From NCBI GenBank assembly GCA_016946835.1, contig JACVTC010000099.1, forward strand, positions 252,501 through 316,500: DNA of 64,000 nt. The letters are read 5' to 3'. The notes beneath the pieces were generated by a model. That model ran no database searches and was not told the DNA's origin. It was given only the letters and a program-made list of their open reading frames with translations. Made by a program: the position numbers and the translations under genes. Shown here in pieces: positions 3,026 to 38,512 of the stretch. Within the stretch, counting starts at the first letter, position 1; each line of letters starts with the position of its first letter. Source of the DNA: Neocallimastix lanati (nom. inval.) (taxonomy: Eukaryota > Neocallimastigomycota > Neocallimastigomycetes > Neocallimastigales > Neocallimastigaceae).

Positions 3026-3421
3026 TTTTTTTTTTTTTTTTTTTATGTAGAAACAGTATACTTTAAAATTAAAGTATAGTTTTATTAATTAAATATAAAA
3101 AAAAATAAATAAATATTTATATATATATATATATATATATTAAAGGTATATAGATAAGTTTTTTTACTAATCAAAAATAATAATAATAATAATAATAATA
3201 ATTTTTATAAAAATTTTCTTAAAAAAATAATCAATAAATTTTCATTATCATTATTATTATTATTAAAGCTTTATTTCTTTTGTATAAAAAAAATTTTTTT
3301 TTATTACATAGGTTAAAATACATATCAAAAATGTGAAAAATAAAAAACTATTAAAAACGATTAAATTAAAATAATAAAATTACTACTTCTTATTTTTAAT
3401 TAATATATTTTAAACTTTTAT

Positions 3422-3458
<37 letters not shown>

Positions 3459-4281
3459 ATAATTTAATATAATTATCATATAAAGTTTATATATTAAAAT
3501 TTTATATTTATAAAATTAAAATTAAAATTTTGCTTGATTCAAAAATTTTAATATGAGTATTATTATTATTAGTAGTAGCAGTAGAAATATGTAATATGTA
3601 ATAATATTTTATATTATTATTAGTAGCAGTAGTAATAACTAATAAGTATTTTATATATTATTATTTTTAAGAATTTTTTAATATTTAAAAGAAATTAAAT
3701 TATATATATATATATATATAAAAATTCATATTAAAACAGGTGAGAGAAGAAACAAATCATCTTAAAAAAAATTTTTTTTTATTTTGAAAATATATTAATA
3801 TTTTTATATTATTTTTTTATTATTAAAAAAAAAAATATCGTTTTATATTTATATTATCTTTGTACTGTCAAATTTCATACACAATATTTTGGAAAAAAAA
3901 TATATATATATATATAAAGAAATTAATAGCAATGATAGATATTATGTATTTATATATAATATATATATATAAATTTTATTTTTTGTTTATTATAAAAAAT
4001 AAAAAAAAAATTTTTTTTAAGTAATTCTTCGTTGTAATAAATCTCCGACAATATTAATTTCTTACTCTTCTTTTTTAAATTGTTTATTAATTAAAGGAAA
4101 GGAACGAAAATAAAAGTATTAATTGAAATTAAAAATAAATTAATAACAAAGGATTATTATATTAATTATCTGTTATTATATTATTATTATTATCATTATT
4201 ATCAAGTTTATAATAAATAATTATAATAATTAATAGTATTAATTTATTACAACTATTATTTCCTTTATTTATTTATTTATT

Positions 4282-4312
<31 letters not shown>

Positions 4313-4713
4313 ACATTATTCATTATTTATTATTATAATCATTATTATTTAAAAGTATTATCATTACCTTTATTCAATATCTTCAGTTTTTAACTTTTAA
4401 TATTTTATTATTAAGAAATATATATTATAATGAAGATATTATAAAAAATTATTATTTATTACTTATTATTATTTTTTCTTTTCTGTTTTTACTAATCTTT
4501 CTCTTTAAAAATAAGAAATATATTAGCATATATGAATAAAATCTTCATATAAATATTAATATTATAATAAAAAAAAAAAAAAATAAATAAAAATAAATAA
4601 AAGATTAAATAAAAGATTTTAATAATTTTATTTCTATTTCTATTTTTCTCTAATATAAATTGTTGTTTCATAGTATTTATTGAAACTATTATATTTTTTC
4701 TAAATTATTAAAA
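3026..4713. other. AT-rich intergenic DNA
   Basis: Upstream of the minus-strand gene. It holds poly-T and poly-A runs (about 3026-3044 and 3423-3454), TA and AAT microsatellites and short ATT arrays. No open frame with non-repetitive composition was seen on either strand. Confidence 0.6.
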
Positions 4714-4833
4714 TAAAGAGAGAAAAATTATATAAATGTATTATCCTTCATAGTATATCAAATAATATAAAAAAATAAATAGAGAAAAATTATATAAATA
4801 TATTATCCTTCATAGTATATCAAATAATAACTT
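4714..4833. repeat. Tandem duplication, two units of about 65 bp
   Basis: The phrase AGAGAAAAATTATATAAAT followed by TATTATCCTTCATAGTATA occurs twice in direct orientation, the second starting about 65 bases after the first, with one base change inside the shared part. It lies in non-coding DNA. Confidence 0.7.
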
Positions 4834-4944
4834 TTAGCCTTAATTTCACATTATTATTATATATAGGAATAAATAAAAAAAATTTTTTTTTTTATTCATT
4901 TAAAGATCAAAACTAAATTATATCTAATGTATTTTTCTTTTAAT

Positions 4945-4971
4945 TTTTTTGATATTATATCTTATTCTAAT

Positions 4972-5011
<40 letters not shown>

Positions 5012-5123
5012 TTTGATATTATATCTTATTCTAATGCATTTTTCTTTTAATTTTTTTTTTGATATTATATCTTATTCTAATTTATTTTTTTTTTTTTTAA
5101 TTTTTTGATGTTATATCTTATTG
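4945..5123. repeat. Short tandem array derived from the edge of the copia fossil
   Basis: The word GATATTATATCTTATT starts at 4951, 5015 and 5061, with a variant at 5107, separated by T-rich spacers of changing length. The 5107 unit is continuous with the end of the copia reverse-transcriptase remnant, so the array seems to have grown from that edge. Confidence 0.6.
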
Positions 5124-5314
5124 TTTCATACCATTTCTTACCTGATTGTTTAAAGGGCAATATAAGGATTTGTTATGCTTCCAGTATCCCCTCCCAAAGT
5201 TTATATATCGCCTTTAGGAATGCTGATGTAAATACCTTTTTATCGAGAGAAGCATTAAGATAAACTGTCTTAATATCAAGATGGAAGATATCCCAGTGAA
5301 AAGCAGCAGATAAT

Positions 5315-5354
<40 letters not shown>

Positions 5355-5755
5355 ATTAAGACAATCAATATAAGTAGGGAAATAAGTAAGGTCATGATCA
5401 ATACCACCCCCAATTTTTTTAAAGGGAAACCTTTGGTACAAGACGAGTTTTCTATATTTGTAGATAAAATTATTTACTAAATCCTTTTTTAATAGTAAAA
5501 AATCCATTTATTTAATAGAATTTTTTTTTTTTTTTTGGAGGAACTTTGGAAACAAAAGTCATTATTTTATTTGAATATATAAATTAATTAATTCACTCAT
5601 GAATAGCGTTAATCCAGTGTTTTTTTTTATTGTTGCAACGAAAAAAAAGCTTCATCATAGTTATTTAGAGAGTTAGAATAGATAGATAGGATCATATATA
5701 ATAAGTATCATCAGGATCTAACTTCTTGAAAATTCTAAGGGTAGAAGGAATAACT

Positions 5756-29261: not shown

Positions 29262-30165
29262 ATATGAATTAATCAAATATCAAATATTTCTTTAACTTCA
29301 CATTTAATTTTATATAGTTAATTATATATAAACAACACACAAATTTATTTCAATTTTAATCCCTTATATCCAATATTTCAATATTATAACTTTTTATTCA
29401 ATTTTAATTATTAATTCAGTCAATATCTTTAATTCAATTCAGAAAAAATTCAACTATGAAAAAAAAAAAAAAAAAAAAAAAATTCAAATTTATTAATTAT
29501 TAAAGTTCTAAAAACTCATCAAAATTATATTGCAATTTAAATTTTAAAATTCACTTTTTCTCAATAAAATTTATATCTTCAGAATCCTAGGATACGACTT
29601 TTATAACAAAATTTTAATTCCAACTAATTTATTCAACGTTTACTTACTCAATTGACTTAAGATTTCGATATCAATACATAAAAATTAATAGCTATTAATT
29701 AATTAAAAATAAAAATTTTTTTTTTTAACTTTAAATTAAATTAAATTCTTAATTAAATGGACAATATATTATAATTCAAATAAATCAATTAAGTAATTAA
29801 ATGAATATTCGACTATTAATAGATAAACAATATATAAACAATTCACTTAAATTAATTATTAATAATTCCATTTTCATTTAATTAATTCTTGTCTCTACTT
29901 TTTGGCCTTAGTATAAAAAATTTTTCAATATAAAATTTTTTCCAATATATATCACAATACAATTTAATATATGAATAAAATAAAATTTTTCAAATTTTAT
30001 CATAATTTTTATTATGGAATTTTTTTTTTTCAGTATTATATATTACAATATACTTATTATAATTTCTCAATTTATTCACAACTTGAATTATTTTTAAATT
30101 AATAATTTTACCATGTTTTCTTCCACTTTAAATTGTCTGGAATCCAATTTTTCCAGGCGGGGCGT
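29142..30165 (+). other. Non-coding stretch between element A pol and the next LTR
   Basis: AT-rich with two A runs (29225-29257 and 29459-29481) and several TTTCAATAT phrases. It ends in a purine-rich CAGGCGGGGCG directly before the LTR, which looks like a polypurine tract. No gene seen. Confidence 0.5.
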
Positions 30166-31240
30166 TGTAAAAATAAGAAAAATAAAATTAAAATAAAAGT
30201 TGGAATTACTTTTATTAAAATTAGTAATTTCACAATTAGAAAATAATAAATAAGAAATTATAATAAATTAAAACTTTAAAATAAAATATTCGTTTAAAAA
30301 CGAATATATTAAATTAATGAAATAAATAAATAAAGTTAATAAAAAAATGGGCTTTAACTTTAAAAGTCCATAACTCCCCAAATCGCCGCGATGGAGGGTT
30401 AAAAATAGGCGAAGAGAAAAATAATTTCTTCATCATACGAGGTCTCAAAGCCTCCTAGATGTCGAGATATTTACATTTAAAGTTTAAGGGTGTTAATTAA
30501 AATTAACTAAAATTTTTTATAATTATTTTTATTATAATTTAATTATTAAAATATAAATAACATATATCAAATATAAAATATACCCTTATTAGATTAGGAA
30601 ATTAATTACAAAATAATTAATTTTTTAATTTTTTAATTATCTAGATAATATTAAAGAAAACTTAAAACAAAATAAATAAGGGATCCAATTTATTATTAAA
30701 TAATTAAAATAAAAATTTATTTAGATTAGGAATTAATAATAGAAATAAAGTGTAAAAATTTTATAAGCCATGTAAATATAGTTTAGGAAAAATATAAATA
30801 GTTTAGTTTTTATTTTAAATTAATCTTTGAAAAAGATTATTGACAAATTATCTCTGACAATTTATCTTTAATTGAAAATTTTATTATAGAAATTATAATT
30901 AAGACTTTCTATTTTATAAAAATTATATTGAACTTTTTATTATTAAACTTTTATATCAATAAATAATAAATGAAATTATTTTAATTTTAAAAAAAAAAAG
31001 TTTCTTTATTTTATATTAATTACGTGTTACCAAATAAAATTTATATGAATTATTTATTCGGATTATATTCTAATTAAATAATCTATTGATTCATAAAATA
31101 ATTATCTTGTTTTAATAATAAAAGAACCCTAACCAAATAACAAATAAAATACAGAGTAAAAATTTTTCTAACCTAGTTATTCTAATCTTTAGTCTGTGTA
31201 ACCTTGTATACGTATCCCAATCAGACTAAGTCTCTTTACA
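30166..31240 (+). mobile_element. A-family LTR, copy 1
   Basis: 1075 bases from TGTAAAAATAAG to CTCTTTACA, with short inverted ends TGTAAA/TTTACA. Two further copies lie at 34132 and 49560, all close to 98% alike by eye. The five bases on its two sides do not match and a polypurine-like tract sits just before it. That fits a 3' LTR attached to a body, probably element A, rather than a solo LTR. It carries a conserved GC-richer island (30360-30490, with AAATCGCCGCGATGGAGGG). Confidence 0.8.
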
Positions 31241-31630
31241 AATATATTTTATTTTATAGTTGATAGTGATTTTAATATTATTATATTCATATATATTATA
31301 ATTTTAATAATTCATTTTATTATATTTAACTATATATGAATTTATATTTTATTTTGATAGTTGAGAGTATATAATTTACAATTTTAAATTTAATTTATTT
31401 TCAAATAACAAATATTGAGTCATATTGATATAACATCTAATATAATTCAATATATTTATAATGGTTATTGTTATTTATTTATTCTTATATTATATTGAAT
31501 AATAATTAATTTTATAATTCGATATATTTATATTAATTATTTTAACACGTTATATTCATTATAAAATTTTATTAAAAGATATTTAATATAACAATATTTA
31601 TATTGCTTTATATATTGCTACATCTAATAT
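31241..31630. other. Leader region before element B gag
   Basis: AT-rich, with a TTTTATAGTTGATAG/TTTTGATAGTTGAGAG pair about 105 bases apart. No clear 5' LTR for element B and no gene were seen. Confidence 0.4.
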
Positions 31631-34004
31631 ATGGAAAATTTCTTTATTCACATGAAAAGTTATTCATCATCTAATAGTTCTAGTCATTCAAACGCAAGCT
31701 TTAAAAATAGTAGTGTTAATAATTCTCCCTTTAACTCTGACAATTCAAGTACAATAGTTAGGTCCAAAATGACATTTGATTCTAAAGATAAAATGTTAAT
31801 GTTAAACGCCATCCAGAAGTTAAGTGCTGGCAACAAAAACGTAAAGTCTTGGATTAAGCAAATTACTTCCTGGATGAAATTGTTTGAAGAGACAGATATG
31901 AATGATGTAGTCCTTTGTATGAAATTAGCCTCCGCAGGAGACATTCCGGAAATACATTGACAACTACGTTATACAAAATCCTGATAATCTTTCCATGAAG
32001 GGATTAGAAAATTTTCTTCTTACAGAATGGTTACACAAGAAGAAACAAAGTCAGCTATTATCCGAGATTAAAAACATGAGTATTGAAATAAATAAAACTG
32101 TAGTCGAGTTTAACAAGAGATTTAAAGAAATATATACGAAACTAAATGAAGAAAGTAAGAAATATATTTCTATATATGACTACGAGGGAACTCTGAAACC
32201 AAGAACTGTGGTTTGGTCAAGAGTCTATTCTTCCTGTTGTTCATCATTAGAGGAGACATATGAAAAAGCTGAACTCTATGATGAAATCTACCATGAAACA
32301 AACAAAAGGAAGACTAATAATTTTAGATCCTTATATCAGGAGGGTGGAGACAATAGAAATAGGATAGTAATTAAATCTAAAACTCTTCCTCCACAAGTAA
32401 GGGGAAAGTCTCCCAAAGAAAATGACACCATGGAAGACCTAACCAATAAAATGAAGAATTTAAGGATAAAGACCTGTTACATTTGTGAACAAGAGGGACA
32501 CTTGAAATACGATTGTCCCAAACTGAAGAGATTAAACGCTCTTCTAGAAAAATTAGATAATCTTGAAGAAAAAAACTAAATAAAGGGAGTTTGCGGACTC
32601 CCGAAAATAAAGTAACCGCCACTTATTACACTCCTGAGAAACCAAATAAGTTACTTATCGCTGCGGCCAAGAGGAAGTCTAATTCTCAGGAGAATAATAA
32701 TAATAAAAAAAAATACAATTTACGAGGTAATTCATCTCATGATGTTTCCTCAACATCATGAGACAATATTACCCAAAATACTAATGTAGAGGATAATATA
32801 CCTTTAAGGAATTTAATTATTCCTAAATCACAATTAAATAAATTAAAGAAGAAAGAATCATTAAATAAAACACAAAATATTTTACAAATATTCAGAACAA
32901 TAATAATAATTACAATAATATTAATAATAATAATAATATTTATAATCATAATCATAATAATAATAATAATAATAATATTGTACTAACAATAATAATAACA
33001 AGTATGATAACAACAATAATAATAATAGTAGTCACAATTATATCAACAACGTTAACAATAATAATTTTAGTAATACAAATTTATTAAATACTGAAAATAT
33101 TAATTTATCATCAGATAGGGTACAAATTTGTCTACCAGTAATGCGCCACAAAATAGTTCGTCTAACAATGATAAAAATATTAATAATTTTAATAATTCAA
33201 ATATGATAATAGATAGCATGAATAACAATACCAATAATCAAAATAATAAGGGTTCCAATGTCAATAAGAAATGTCCCCGCAATTTATGTCTAATGAATAA
33301 TGTGGAACCATATGATATTATTAAGGATATTGCTAACTTAAAATGCAATATATCCTTATCCCAATTGGTAAATGATTTGACCCCTTCTAGCTTGGGACCC
33401 CATCATATTAAAATTAAGGAGGGCTTTGCCCCTATTAAGCTACGATATTATCGTACTAATAATGTCAAATCAGCCATTATTAAGGACCATATTAAGGATA
33501 TGATTAATAAAAGAATAATAATTCCTTCATCATCTGAATGGTCATTTCCAGTAGTATTAGTCCCCAAAAACAATTCTAACGAATGGCGTTTATGTGTGGA
33601 CTATTACAGTTCCGGATTCTTATTCCCTGCCTTATATTGACGAAATATTTGATAACCTCGGAGGAGCGGAAATTTTTTCTTCTTTGGATTTATTTTCTGG
33701 GTATCATCAAATTTTATTGGATGATGACAGTGTGGATAAAACCTGTTTCACCACTAAATATGGCAATTTTGTATTCAAGGTAATGCCATTTGGTCTGTGT
33801 AACGCTCCTGCTACGTTCCATAGGGAAATGAATAAAATTTTATTTGACTTGATAGGCGTTTGTGTATATATTTTTATAGATGATATATTAATTTTTTCTA
33901 AAACTCCTGAAGAACACGTGAAACACTTAATTTTAGTTCTGGATATTTTCAAAAATTTTAATATAAAAATTAACATTGAAAAATGTCAATTTATGAGGGA
34001 GTGA

Positions 34005-35631
34005 TCTAAAACAAATATGTGTAGTAACATATTTGTATATTTAATAATTATTAAATATTAAATTTATATATTTTGATAATAATTTTTATAATATATTATT
34101 AATTATTCATTATTATATTATAATTACTATTTGTAAAAATAAGAAAAATGAAATTAAAATAAAATTTGAAATTACTTTTATTGAAATTAGTAATTTCACA
34201 ATTAGAAAATAATAAATAAGAAATTATAATAAATTAAAACTTTAAAATAAAATATTCTTTTAAAAACGAATATATTAAATTAATGAAATAAATAAATAAA
34301 GTTAATAAGAAATGGGCTTTGACTTTAAAAGTCCATAACTCCCCAAATCGCCGCGATGGAGGGTTAAAAATAGGCGAAGAGAAAAATAATTTCTTCATCA
34401 TACGAGGTCTCAAAGCCTCCTAGATGTCGAGATATTTACATTTAAAGTTTAAGGGTGTTAATTAAAATTAACTAGAATTTTTTATAATTATTTTTATTAT
34501 AATTTAATTATTAAAATATAAATAACATATATCAAATATAAAATATACCCTTATTAGATTAGGAAATTAATTACAAAATAATTAATTTTTTAATTTTTTA
34601 ATTATCTAGATAATATTAAAGAAAATTTAAAACAAAATAAATAAGGATCCAATTTATTATTAAATAATTAAAATAAAAATTTATTTAGATTAGGAATTAA
34701 TAATAGAAATAAAGTGTAAAAATTTTATAAGCCATGTAAATATAGTTTAGGAAAAATATAAATAGTTTAGTTTTTATTTTAAATTAATCTTTGAAAAAGA
34801 TTATTGACAAATTATCTCTGACAATTTATCTTTAATTGAAAATTTTATTATAGAAATTATAATTAAGACTTTCTATTTTATAAAAATTATATTGAACTTT
34901 TTATTATTAAACTTTTATATCAATAAATAATAAATGAAATTATTTTAATTTTAAAAAAAAAAAGTTTCTTTATTTTATATTAATTACGTGTTACCAAATA
35001 AAATTTATATGAATTATTTATTCGGATTATATTCTAATTAAATAATCTATTGATTCATAAAATAATTATTTTGTTTTAATAATAAAAGAACGCTAACCAA
35101 ATAACAAATAAAATACACAGCAAAAATTTTTCTAACCTAGTTATTCTAATCTTTAGTCTGTGTAACCTTGTATACTTATCCCAATTAGACTAAGTCTCTT
35201 TACACTATTATAATATATATTAAATTACATATTTTATAATATATTAAATTATATATTTATTTTATAATTATATATTATTATATTAAAATATAATAATATT
35301 CTTATATTTAACTTTAATAGGATTTAAATAATCTTTTTTTATTTTATATTATATAATATATTATTATGTATTATTTTATATTTATTTTATATTTTACATA
35401 TAATATACATTTATTATTTAAATATAGATATTGTATTCTTATATATATAATTTATATTATATGTTTAAAATATATTTCATATAATTAAATTTATAATTTT
35501 TAAAATATAATTTCTTAATAATAATCAATTTCTAATAAAATTAATTTAGAAAGGGTTTTTTTAGTTTTTAGGAAAAGCAATAATAAATTAAATAAATATA
35601 TAACTATATTATTATAATTAAAATATAGCAC
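34005..35631. other. AT-rich insertion inside element B, host of a solo LTR
   Basis: The two AT-rich flanks, 34005-34131 and 35205-35631, form a block of roughly 550 bases that is foreign to pol and lies between its RT and RNase H parts. The A-family LTR sits inside this block. It may be a decayed LTR of another family, but its ends could not be fixed. Confidence 0.45.
34132..35204 (+). mobile_element. A-family solo LTR, copy 2
   Basis: 1073 bases, TGTAAAAATAAG to CTCTTTACA, flanked on both sides by the 5-base duplication CTATT (34127-34131 and 35205-35209). The duplication shows an independent insertion followed by LTR-LTR recombination, so it is not the partner of the LTR at 30166. It is nested in the AT-rich block within element B. 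Confidence 0.9.
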
Positions 35632-36079
35632 ATGTGTTTAGGTCACGTGATATATAAGGAAGGACTTAAAACCGATGATAAAAAGGTTATGGCAATAAAA
35701 AATTGGGTAATTCCTAATAATGTTTCAGAACTCAAGTCGTTTTTAGGTGCAATTGGTTACTACCGTAAATTCATAAATCAATTTGTACAAGTTGCTGCAC
35801 CACTTACTAAATTACTACGTAAAGGTATAACTTTTAATATTAGTAAAGAAAAAACTACTAGTTTTAATAATTTGAAAAAGTGTTTAATTAAAGTCCCAAT
35901 ATTAATATTTCCAGACTATACTAAACAATTCTTTAATAGAACAGATTCATCAAAAAAAGGTTTGGGTGGCGTTCTACTACAAGTGCCTGGTGAATTAGAA
36001 CGTCCAATCCACTTTGTAAGTCGCTCATTATCTAGAGCTGAGAGAAACTATAGCATAACTGGTCGCCACAGCGGTAATT

Positions 36080-37430
36080 AAAAAAAAAATAAAAAAAATT
36101 ACCAATCAACATATAAATAATTTAATTTGAAAAAAAAAATTTTAAAGCCATTCGTGTCACGTGTGTGAATTGTAAAAAAAGTATTTAAACAGTAAGCTTC
36201 GCTTAATGTTTAACTCTCTGTATTAATAATAATTAACATACAGAGAGTTAAACTTTTTTATTTCAAATTTTAAATACTTTTTTTAATAAATCTTTTTTAT
36301 TAATTATGACCAAAAGAACTGCTAATTGTTTAGAAATTGCTACTGCTGTTGCTAAGGACTGTGCTACCGCTTATAAAGATGATAGTTCTTCTAACAAGAA
36401 GATGAAAAAATCTAAAAAAAGAGAATGGTTTATCAATAACAAAAAAGAATTATTATTAACGTATCCAGATACAAGAAATATCTTAACTAAGGAAATGGTC
36501 GTAGAAATGTTAAATGGCTCACAAAAAAGTTTAAAATTTATTGTTTCAAAAGAAAAAAGTCATAAAAACGGAGAGCATGACCATATTCATGCTCATCTTT
36601 GGTTCGATAAAGCCTATTCTACTGAAGATATAAGATGTTTCGATGTATTTGATAATAGGTTCGATAATGAAAGTCATAGTATGCATCCCAATATTCGCTT
36701 TAAATCTGATCCTGATTTTGGTCCAGGTATCAAGGGTACAAGAAAAATGATTTTATATGTTACTAAAGAAGATCAAGAACCCTTGAGTAATTGGGATTGG
36801 CAAGCTTGGTTGGATCTTCACCCTGAACAAGTCAGGGCTAACCATGGACGCCGCGAAAGAATCAATATTCCTTTTTTTGAATGGGTACATGAAGATCCGG
36901 TCCCAACCCAAGATATCATTCGTGAAAGAATTAGAAATAATCAAGATTATTATAGCGAATATGTCACTAATTTTTTAAATTATAATAATTTGATTAAAGC
37001 TGAATTCCCCTTAGAACAAAGGGCTATTATTATCCCAAATTTCGATTTACTATATTACATCCCTAAAGAAATTAAAGACTGGATTCAAGAATTTGAAGCA
37101 TGGAAAATATCTGATAAACAAGATAGAGCAAAGGGTATATGGGTAACAGGAAAAAGTAAAACAGGAAAAACCAGTTTATTTACAACTCTTTCTTTAGCAA
37201 TAAGTTATTTCCCTAATATTTGGAATATTGATAATATCGTTCCAGAATCCGAAGTTAATTTATTTGATGATCAAGATATTATTTTCAATGACTGGGAAGA
37301 CTTCAGATGGTTTAAAGGTTTTGTTGGGGCCCAAAAAGTGTTAACAGTAACTGACAAATATAGATCCAAGAAAACAATTGCTAACAATAAGAAATATTTC
37401 AGAGATAATGGAACTTACCGAAGAATTGTA
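36080..37430 (+). mobile_element. Endogenous CRESS-DNA virus Rep cassette inside element B
   Basis: From the ATG at 36306 the frame has the full set of N-terminal HUH-nuclease motifs of geminivirus-like Rep: motif I LLLTYPD (residues 49-55), motif II HDHIHAH (91-97), a GRS-like block RCFDVF...HPNI (110-130) and motif III YVTKE (151-155, Tyr151). A superfamily 3 helicase part follows, with Walker A GKSKTGKTS (282-290), Walker B DIIFNDW (324-330) and GAQK...VTDKYR (341-352). Rep in such viruses nicks the origin and unwinds DNA for rolling-circle replication. The open frame runs on into element B's integrase, so Rep sits between pol parts and looks incomplete. Upstream lies an origin-like stem-loop. 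It is a fossil; the intact motifs suggest moderate age. Geminivirus/genomovirus-like affinity is inferred from motifs. Confidence 0.85.
36208..36253 (+). promoter_or_regulatory. Origin-like stem-loop upstream of Rep
   Basis: A perfect 15-bp stem (GTTTAACTCTCTGTA at 36208-36222 with its complement at 36239-36253) encloses a 16-base AT-only-but-one loop, TTAATAATAATTAACA. CRESS-virus origins are stem-loops with a TAATATTAC-like nonamer in the loop; here the loop has TAATAATTAAC, similar but not identical. It lies 52 bases before the Rep start. A second small hairpin, TAAGC-TTC-GCTTA, is adjacent at about 36193-36205. Origin function is inferred. Confidence 0.65.
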
Positions 37431-38512
37431 GAAGAATATGAAGAAAGAATAAAACTTATCTGGGAAGCCCACAGAATTGGTCATGAGGGTTTCGACAAGA
37501 CGTATCAACGATTAAAGAGACATTATTACTGGAAAGGTATGAATAATGAAGTTAAAGCAACCATTCAATTATGTTCTAAATATCAATTATGTAAAAATAA
37601 TAAATCTATTGACGCCACAGAACGCTACGCCACACCAGTTGAGGGCCCTTTCATACATTTAGGCATGGACATTATTGGCCCATTACCTATTACTGAAAGA
37701 AATAATCAATATATCTTAGTAATAGTTGATTATTTCACTAAGTGGGTAGAAGCGAAGCCTTTGACTACTGTCACTTCAAAAGTGTAATATATTTCTTAAG
37801 TAGAGTGTTTGCAAGACATGGCACGCCACAAGTAGTAACTACAGATAACGGTCCACAATTTAATTCAGAATTAACAAGAATATTTTTGGACTTATATGAT
37901 GTATACATTCATTTTTCAACTACATATCATCCAGAAACTAATGGTATGACTGAAAATAGAAATAGGGAAATTGGGAAATATTTAAGCCTTTTAGGTCAAA
38001 AGGAAAAAGATTGGGATATAGTTTTACCATCTGCTTTATGGGCTCTAAGAACTTCCAAGAATACAGCCACCAAACATTCCAGTTTTGAGTTGGTATATGG
38101 AAGAAATGACCAACAACCATTCGAATTAGCCACAACATTACCAACATTTAATGTACAAGCCACAAATGAAGAAAATTATTAGAAAAATTTTGCAATCATT
38201 ATAAATGGGATTTAGAAGCAAGCCAAAATATGAAAAAGACTAATATGAAATGGGAATAAGAAAGAAATGAAAATTTTAGAAATAATAAACAAAATACTAT
38301 TAGGAAAAATGATCTGGTAAAAGTACAAAATTTCAGTAGATTCAAGTTAGATCCATATTTTGTAGGCCCTTATAAAGTTATTGGAAAACATTTTAATGCG
38401 GTAAAATTAGCGGACCCAGATACAGGTTTAGTTCTTGAAAGACCTGTTCATCTTAAAAATGTTCAAAAATATAAGACAACTTTAGAGTAAGTTGTGTTAT
38501 AGGAGGGAGAAA

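Follow-up and report, generated by a model that had tools for sequence, protein, structure and literature searches.

How did a Rep gene of the kind carried by circular Rep-encoding single-stranded DNA (CRESS-DNA) viruses come to lie inside a gypsy retrotransposon of an anaerobic gut fungus? The question is raised by a 64,000-nucleotide stretch of the Neocallimastix lanati genome (contig JACVTC010000099.1, positions 252,501 to 316,500; hereafter the window), in which a first, sequence-only reading had placed a geminivirus-like Rep between the RNase H and integrase of one element and had proposed either insertion of a circular virus or Rep plasmid or the rise of a chimeric element. The analysis described below indicates that the segment is very probably an endogenous fragment of such a virus, captured into the gypsy element, probably during the repair of a chromosome break. 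It represents a lineage of CRESS-DNA viruses from these fungi.

The placement of Rep within the element was confirmed, and both junctions are fixed by Rep-free copies. The host is a Ty3/gypsy element with reverse transcriptase (RT), RNase H and integrase in that order. In comparison with Rep-free copies that are 96–97% identical, gypsy homology ends at 36059 and restarts at 37386, delimiting an insert of 1,326 bp. The left flank drew 31 matches; 14 of them, at 92–97% identity, come from further gypsy copies and align to 36059 or at most 2 bases off. For the right flank, 40 matches were scored (from 1,267 candidates), and 14 of these come from further copies (89–97%) that start at 37386 or 37387. 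None of these flank relatives, 14 on each side, continues into the insert. The Rep-free copy L018 holds 700 bp between the two junction points, corresponding to the remaining RNase H and the spacer preceding the integrase, and the event was therefore a replacement, with 1,326 bp gained and 700 bp lost. Comparison of the insert ends revealed no target-site duplication and no repeat longer than 8 bp.

The replacing segment is viral in its homology. Rep contains an HUH endonuclease domain with motifs I–III and a GRS-like block, as the sequence-only reading had it, together with the Walker A and Walker B motifs of a superfamily 3 helicase, though helicase motif C is cut off at the right junction. 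Full-length relatives extend beyond this junction, and the copy is therefore an incomplete fragment of a CRESS Rep. Residues 110–133, aligned to the sequence of the TYLCV Rep (7vg8), form a block similar to the GRS, and a Rep with such a block may be of the geminivirus/genomovirus type. The helicase half of the predicted Rep model is poor, and no structural claim is therefore made for the helicase.

Upstream of Rep, the insert retains part of a viral intergenic region. A strong origin-like hairpin (z −8.73) adjoins the gene, as is characteristic of CRESS-DNA virus Reps, and was probably the replication origin of the virus. A CACGTG motif (36158–36163) downstream of the TATA-like box is likewise conserved in the viral intergenic region. 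The interval 36060–36184 is 85% identical to the Cap–Rep intergenic region of another locus in the genome, L046 (G000:C35), where a capsid-like frame (3378–3935) and a Rep frame (4281–5224), both broken, face apart around a similar hairpin. About 9 kb from this pair, an open capsid-like frame of 173 amino acids (L096:594–1112, G000:C35) has a predicted beta fold resembling CRESS capsids, so that a predicted jelly-roll capsid is present in the lineage, not in this insert. Searches with the capsid protein gave no significant match in Pfam, and its C-terminal piece matched nothing among PDB sequences better than E 1.2. As side observations, copia coding sequence flanks L046 on both sides, and the conserved intergenic palindrome lies upstream of the L096 capsid-like frame.

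Table 1. Features of the captured fragment and its host element, in window coordinates
Feature	Position	Strand	Remarks
Upstream pol of host gypsy, including RT, disrupted	33119..34001	+	Comparison with Rep-free copies
Separate insertion in RT	34002..35629		Mostly LTR-like (long terminal repeat-like) sequence, 95.7% identical to 30165–31360
Left flank of host gypsy, RT end and RNase H start	35630..36059	+	Comparison with other copies
Captured CRESS-DNA virus fragment (very probable)	36060..37385	+	Intergenic part, origin-like hairpin and Rep residues 1–360; replaces gypsy pol
Conserved palindromic element GGTCGCCACAGCGGT	36061..36075		Viral intergenic region; slightly changed forms in L046, L048 and L096
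TATA-like box	36111..36119	+	Conserved in viral intergenic region; putative promoter
Putative rolling-circle origin	36173..36285		17-bp outer stem around 19-bp hairpin (36205–36256), A/T-rich loop
Open frame	36252..37787	+	Rep ATG at 36306; Rep, then gypsy integrase H2C2, then start of integrase core
Truncated Rep	36306..37385	+	HUH endonuclease motifs and Walker A/B kept; helicase motif C and C-terminus lost
Right flank of host gypsy, integrase	37386..38495	+	Frame change near 37785

The most probable course of events would begin with a circular Rep-encoding single-stranded DNA virus infecting an ancestor of this fungus. A stretch of viral DNA with the origin, a portion of the intergenic region and Rep codons 1–360 would then have entered a gypsy element already in place, most likely during double-strand break repair and presumably by end joining, with loss of the 700 bp of pol. 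The protein now encoded would consist of a truncated Rep followed by a segment of integrase.

Rep-like sequences recur at about 19 places in the genome, as located with four Rep queries; many are fragmentary or contain stops, and some are weak (E 1e-5 to 1e-3, single genome). Only the best candidates were scored. Coding sequence of LTR elements (gypsy or copia) was found in 10 of 24 Rep flanks, at 7 of 12 loci, compared with 6 of 40 random 800-bp segments (one-sided Fisher p 0.019). The test covers 12 of the roughly 19 places, with two non-independent flanks per locus and random segments from 20 contigs; its protein library contained elements from some of the tested loci, and self-matches of a locus were removed. 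The enrichment is modest and does not demonstrate targeting. Two of the other loci deserve separate mention. At L054:1522–3024 (G000:C468), a Rep frame is open over 501 residues. It comes from a third, divergent lineage, no LTR coding sequence was found adjoining it, and it may have been inserted recently or have been retained as a gene. At L050 (G000:C24), about 99 bp of gypsy sequence is present twice (4313–4413 and 5523–5621), once on either side of a Rep insert whose start is close to its hairpin, and the two copies have diverged (76 of 101 alignment columns identical).

Since Rep adjoins LTR-element coding sequence at several places, and the window insert is an internal, same-orientation replacement with no duplication at its junctions, Rep might have entered by template switching: during reverse transcription the gypsy enzyme would have moved onto a Rep transcript, yielding a chimeric cDNA that was then integrated. 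This alternative is unlikely. The insert begins 51 bp upstream of the conserved TATA-like box, a putative promoter element, and it contains the origin-like hairpin, both of them sequence that a Rep mRNA may well lack; orientations are also mixed, Rep and the LTR element sharing a strand at 4 of the 7 loci flanked by LTR coding sequence. Capture at breaks would account better than the copying of a transcript for these observations as a set: orientations and break points vary, target sequence was lost, and the insert includes the hairpin and sequence upstream of the TATA-like box. The most likely explanation is that DNA of infecting viruses was captured repeatedly while chromosomes were being repaired.

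The insertion half of the initial proposal thus stands, and of its two candidate agents the virus is favored over the plasmid. The absence of a capsid gene from the insert, together with longest contigs of just 1.6–1.9 kb for seven metagenome Reps, would suit a Rep-only plasmid, but its intergenic region shares homology with the one at a locus that has a capsid-like gene, and Rep and Cap occur on equal-sized contigs in two further fungal genera and on two metagenome contigs; a plasmid origin is accordingly quite unlikely. Protein searches returned 15 relatives for Rep (21 with a profile) and 21 for Cap. In Anaeromyces robustus, two Rep/Cap pairs share longest contigs of 117,802 (P0002, P0025) and 69,644 (P0020, P0024); in Piromyces sp. 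E2, both genes have a longest contig of 835,036 with gene numbers 1206 and 1205; and two metagenome pairs share longest contigs of 5,071 (P0006, P0033) and 3,124 (P0010, P0040). A tree restricted to 24 Reps of this lineage, with 6 of 21 inner branches firm and two very long rows, places the window Rep with P0002 (93/70, a branch that is not firm) and apart from the metagenome Reps except P0013.

The search for Rep beside gypsy pol in related genomes, suggested with the sequence-only reading, was successful in Neocallimastix sp. 'constans' (P0001), A. robustus (P0002) and Piromyces sp. E2 (P0014). The A. robustus Rep is 74% identical to that of the window and is joined in its gene model to gypsy sequence; the tail of P0002 is 60–62% identical to the gypsy family of the host element, versus 39% for the next best library entry. 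By eye, the P0014 gene model also joins Rep to gypsy protein sequence. In one reading, which is very unlikely, the fusion is more than chance: a single gypsy family acquired related Reps separately in Neocallimastix and Anaeromyces, and the Rep–integrase protein lends a new function to the element or to its host, for example DNA nicking that eases integration or origin binding that blocks the virus.

The more general proposal of a functional chimeric retroelement that recruited the Rep endonuclease, a new class of element, is highly improbable. It draws on the same A. robustus gene model and on the open frame that the sequence-only reading had followed from Rep into integrase. This frame does enter the integrase H2C2 domain in frame, for which the chance expectation is about 1 in 3, but it stops at the frame change. 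The insert is absent from all of the left- and right-flank relatives, RT is broken by a 1.6-kb insertion and integrase by the frame change, and the helicase of Rep is cut short. Identity of the flanks to Rep-free Neocallimastix copies is 96–97%, and the capture therefore looks recent and separate from the one in Anaeromyces. The right flank is 95.9–96.7% identical to 10 Rep-free copies that average 99.6% among themselves; the window copy is thus an outlier, the Rep-free copies being closer to one another. Because the Rep-into-integrase frame lasts only until the frame change, the insertion looks like a one-off event, with no new chimeric family, and the fused element is probably inert. Finally, an assembly chimera is hardly conceivable, as the N. 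sp. 'constans' gene model (P0001; contig of 691,048 bases, compared with 717,429 for that of the window) joins a Rep that is 100% identical over the aligned 92% to gypsy pol and on into the integrase C-terminus, albeit skipping the junction itself.

Several observations weigh against capture of a viral fragment as a complete account. The Rep–gypsy joins in P0002 and P0014 are unexplained by random capture alone, and the point hardest to reconcile with it is that related Reps have met a single gypsy family repeatedly, in two genera. The co-location of Rep and Cap, including that of the A. robustus relative, is deduced from equal contig sizes, and the free virus is known here solely from protein records of short metagenome contigs. 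Scans of IMG/VR and of GTDB contigs with Rep and Cap yielded no confirmed relative. Among the 50 PDB matches listed for the capsid model, TM-scores by query length range from 0.22 to 0.50, and the matches mix many jelly-roll proteins with some unrelated beta proteins. Apart from these points, a tblastn search with Rep of phage and plasmid records found no relative, and PHROGs gave no match at E 0.001. Among the papers searched, none mentions CRESS DNA viruses together with Neocallimastix or Neocallimastigomycota, or geminiviruses together with Piromyces and Neocallimastix; Zhao et al. 2021 (J Evol Biol) may already list some of these sequences.

The suggestion that the locus records single-stranded DNA viruses in this fungal lineage is supported, with the capsid relative and the intergenic region in common favoring a virus over a Rep-only plasmid, and the recurrence of such sequences at other places and in other genera suggests that these viruses infected the fungi repeatedly. 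The evidence connects a lineage with Rep and a capsid-like gene to Neocallimastigomycota, which break down plant fibre in the gut of herbivores. Fossils of the lineage lie in Neocallimastix, Anaeromyces and Piromyces, and metagenomes probably contain living relatives, which offers testable host assignments for contigs otherwise without a host. More generally, retroelement copies provide an empty-site record of the entry of viral DNA into a chromosome. The locus is of interest chiefly for the host assignment and for a lineage that carries a capsid, and less for its seeming chimera.

Liu et al. 2011 (PMC3198968) describe endogenous Rep sequences of geminivirus-, nanovirus- and circovirus-like type from eukaryotes, including fungi. 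These resemble the window fragment as Reps of circular single-stranded DNA viruses in a nuclear genome; the fragment differs in that its retroelement setting allows an exact comparison with empty sites and in having an origin-like hairpin and a capsid-linked lineage. The geminivirus-like transposon of Tuber melanosporum, from the same paper, likewise combines a Rep-like gene with a mobile-element setting in a fungus, but it is amplified and bears 37-bp terminal inverted repeats, whereas the window insert was found once and lacks such repeats. Known fungal CRESS viruses are few, and according to PMC9603141 Genomoviridae was the sole CRESS family recognised as infecting fungi as of 2022. The fungal host is shared with that family, whereas the best named matches of the capsid model are other CRESS capsids. 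Among these is the capsid of Entamoeba-associated CRESS DNA virus 1 (BFVD A0A7G8KWH5), a fold match at E 2.5e-8 in a comparison of the capsid alone; to judge by its name, that virus is associated with a protist.
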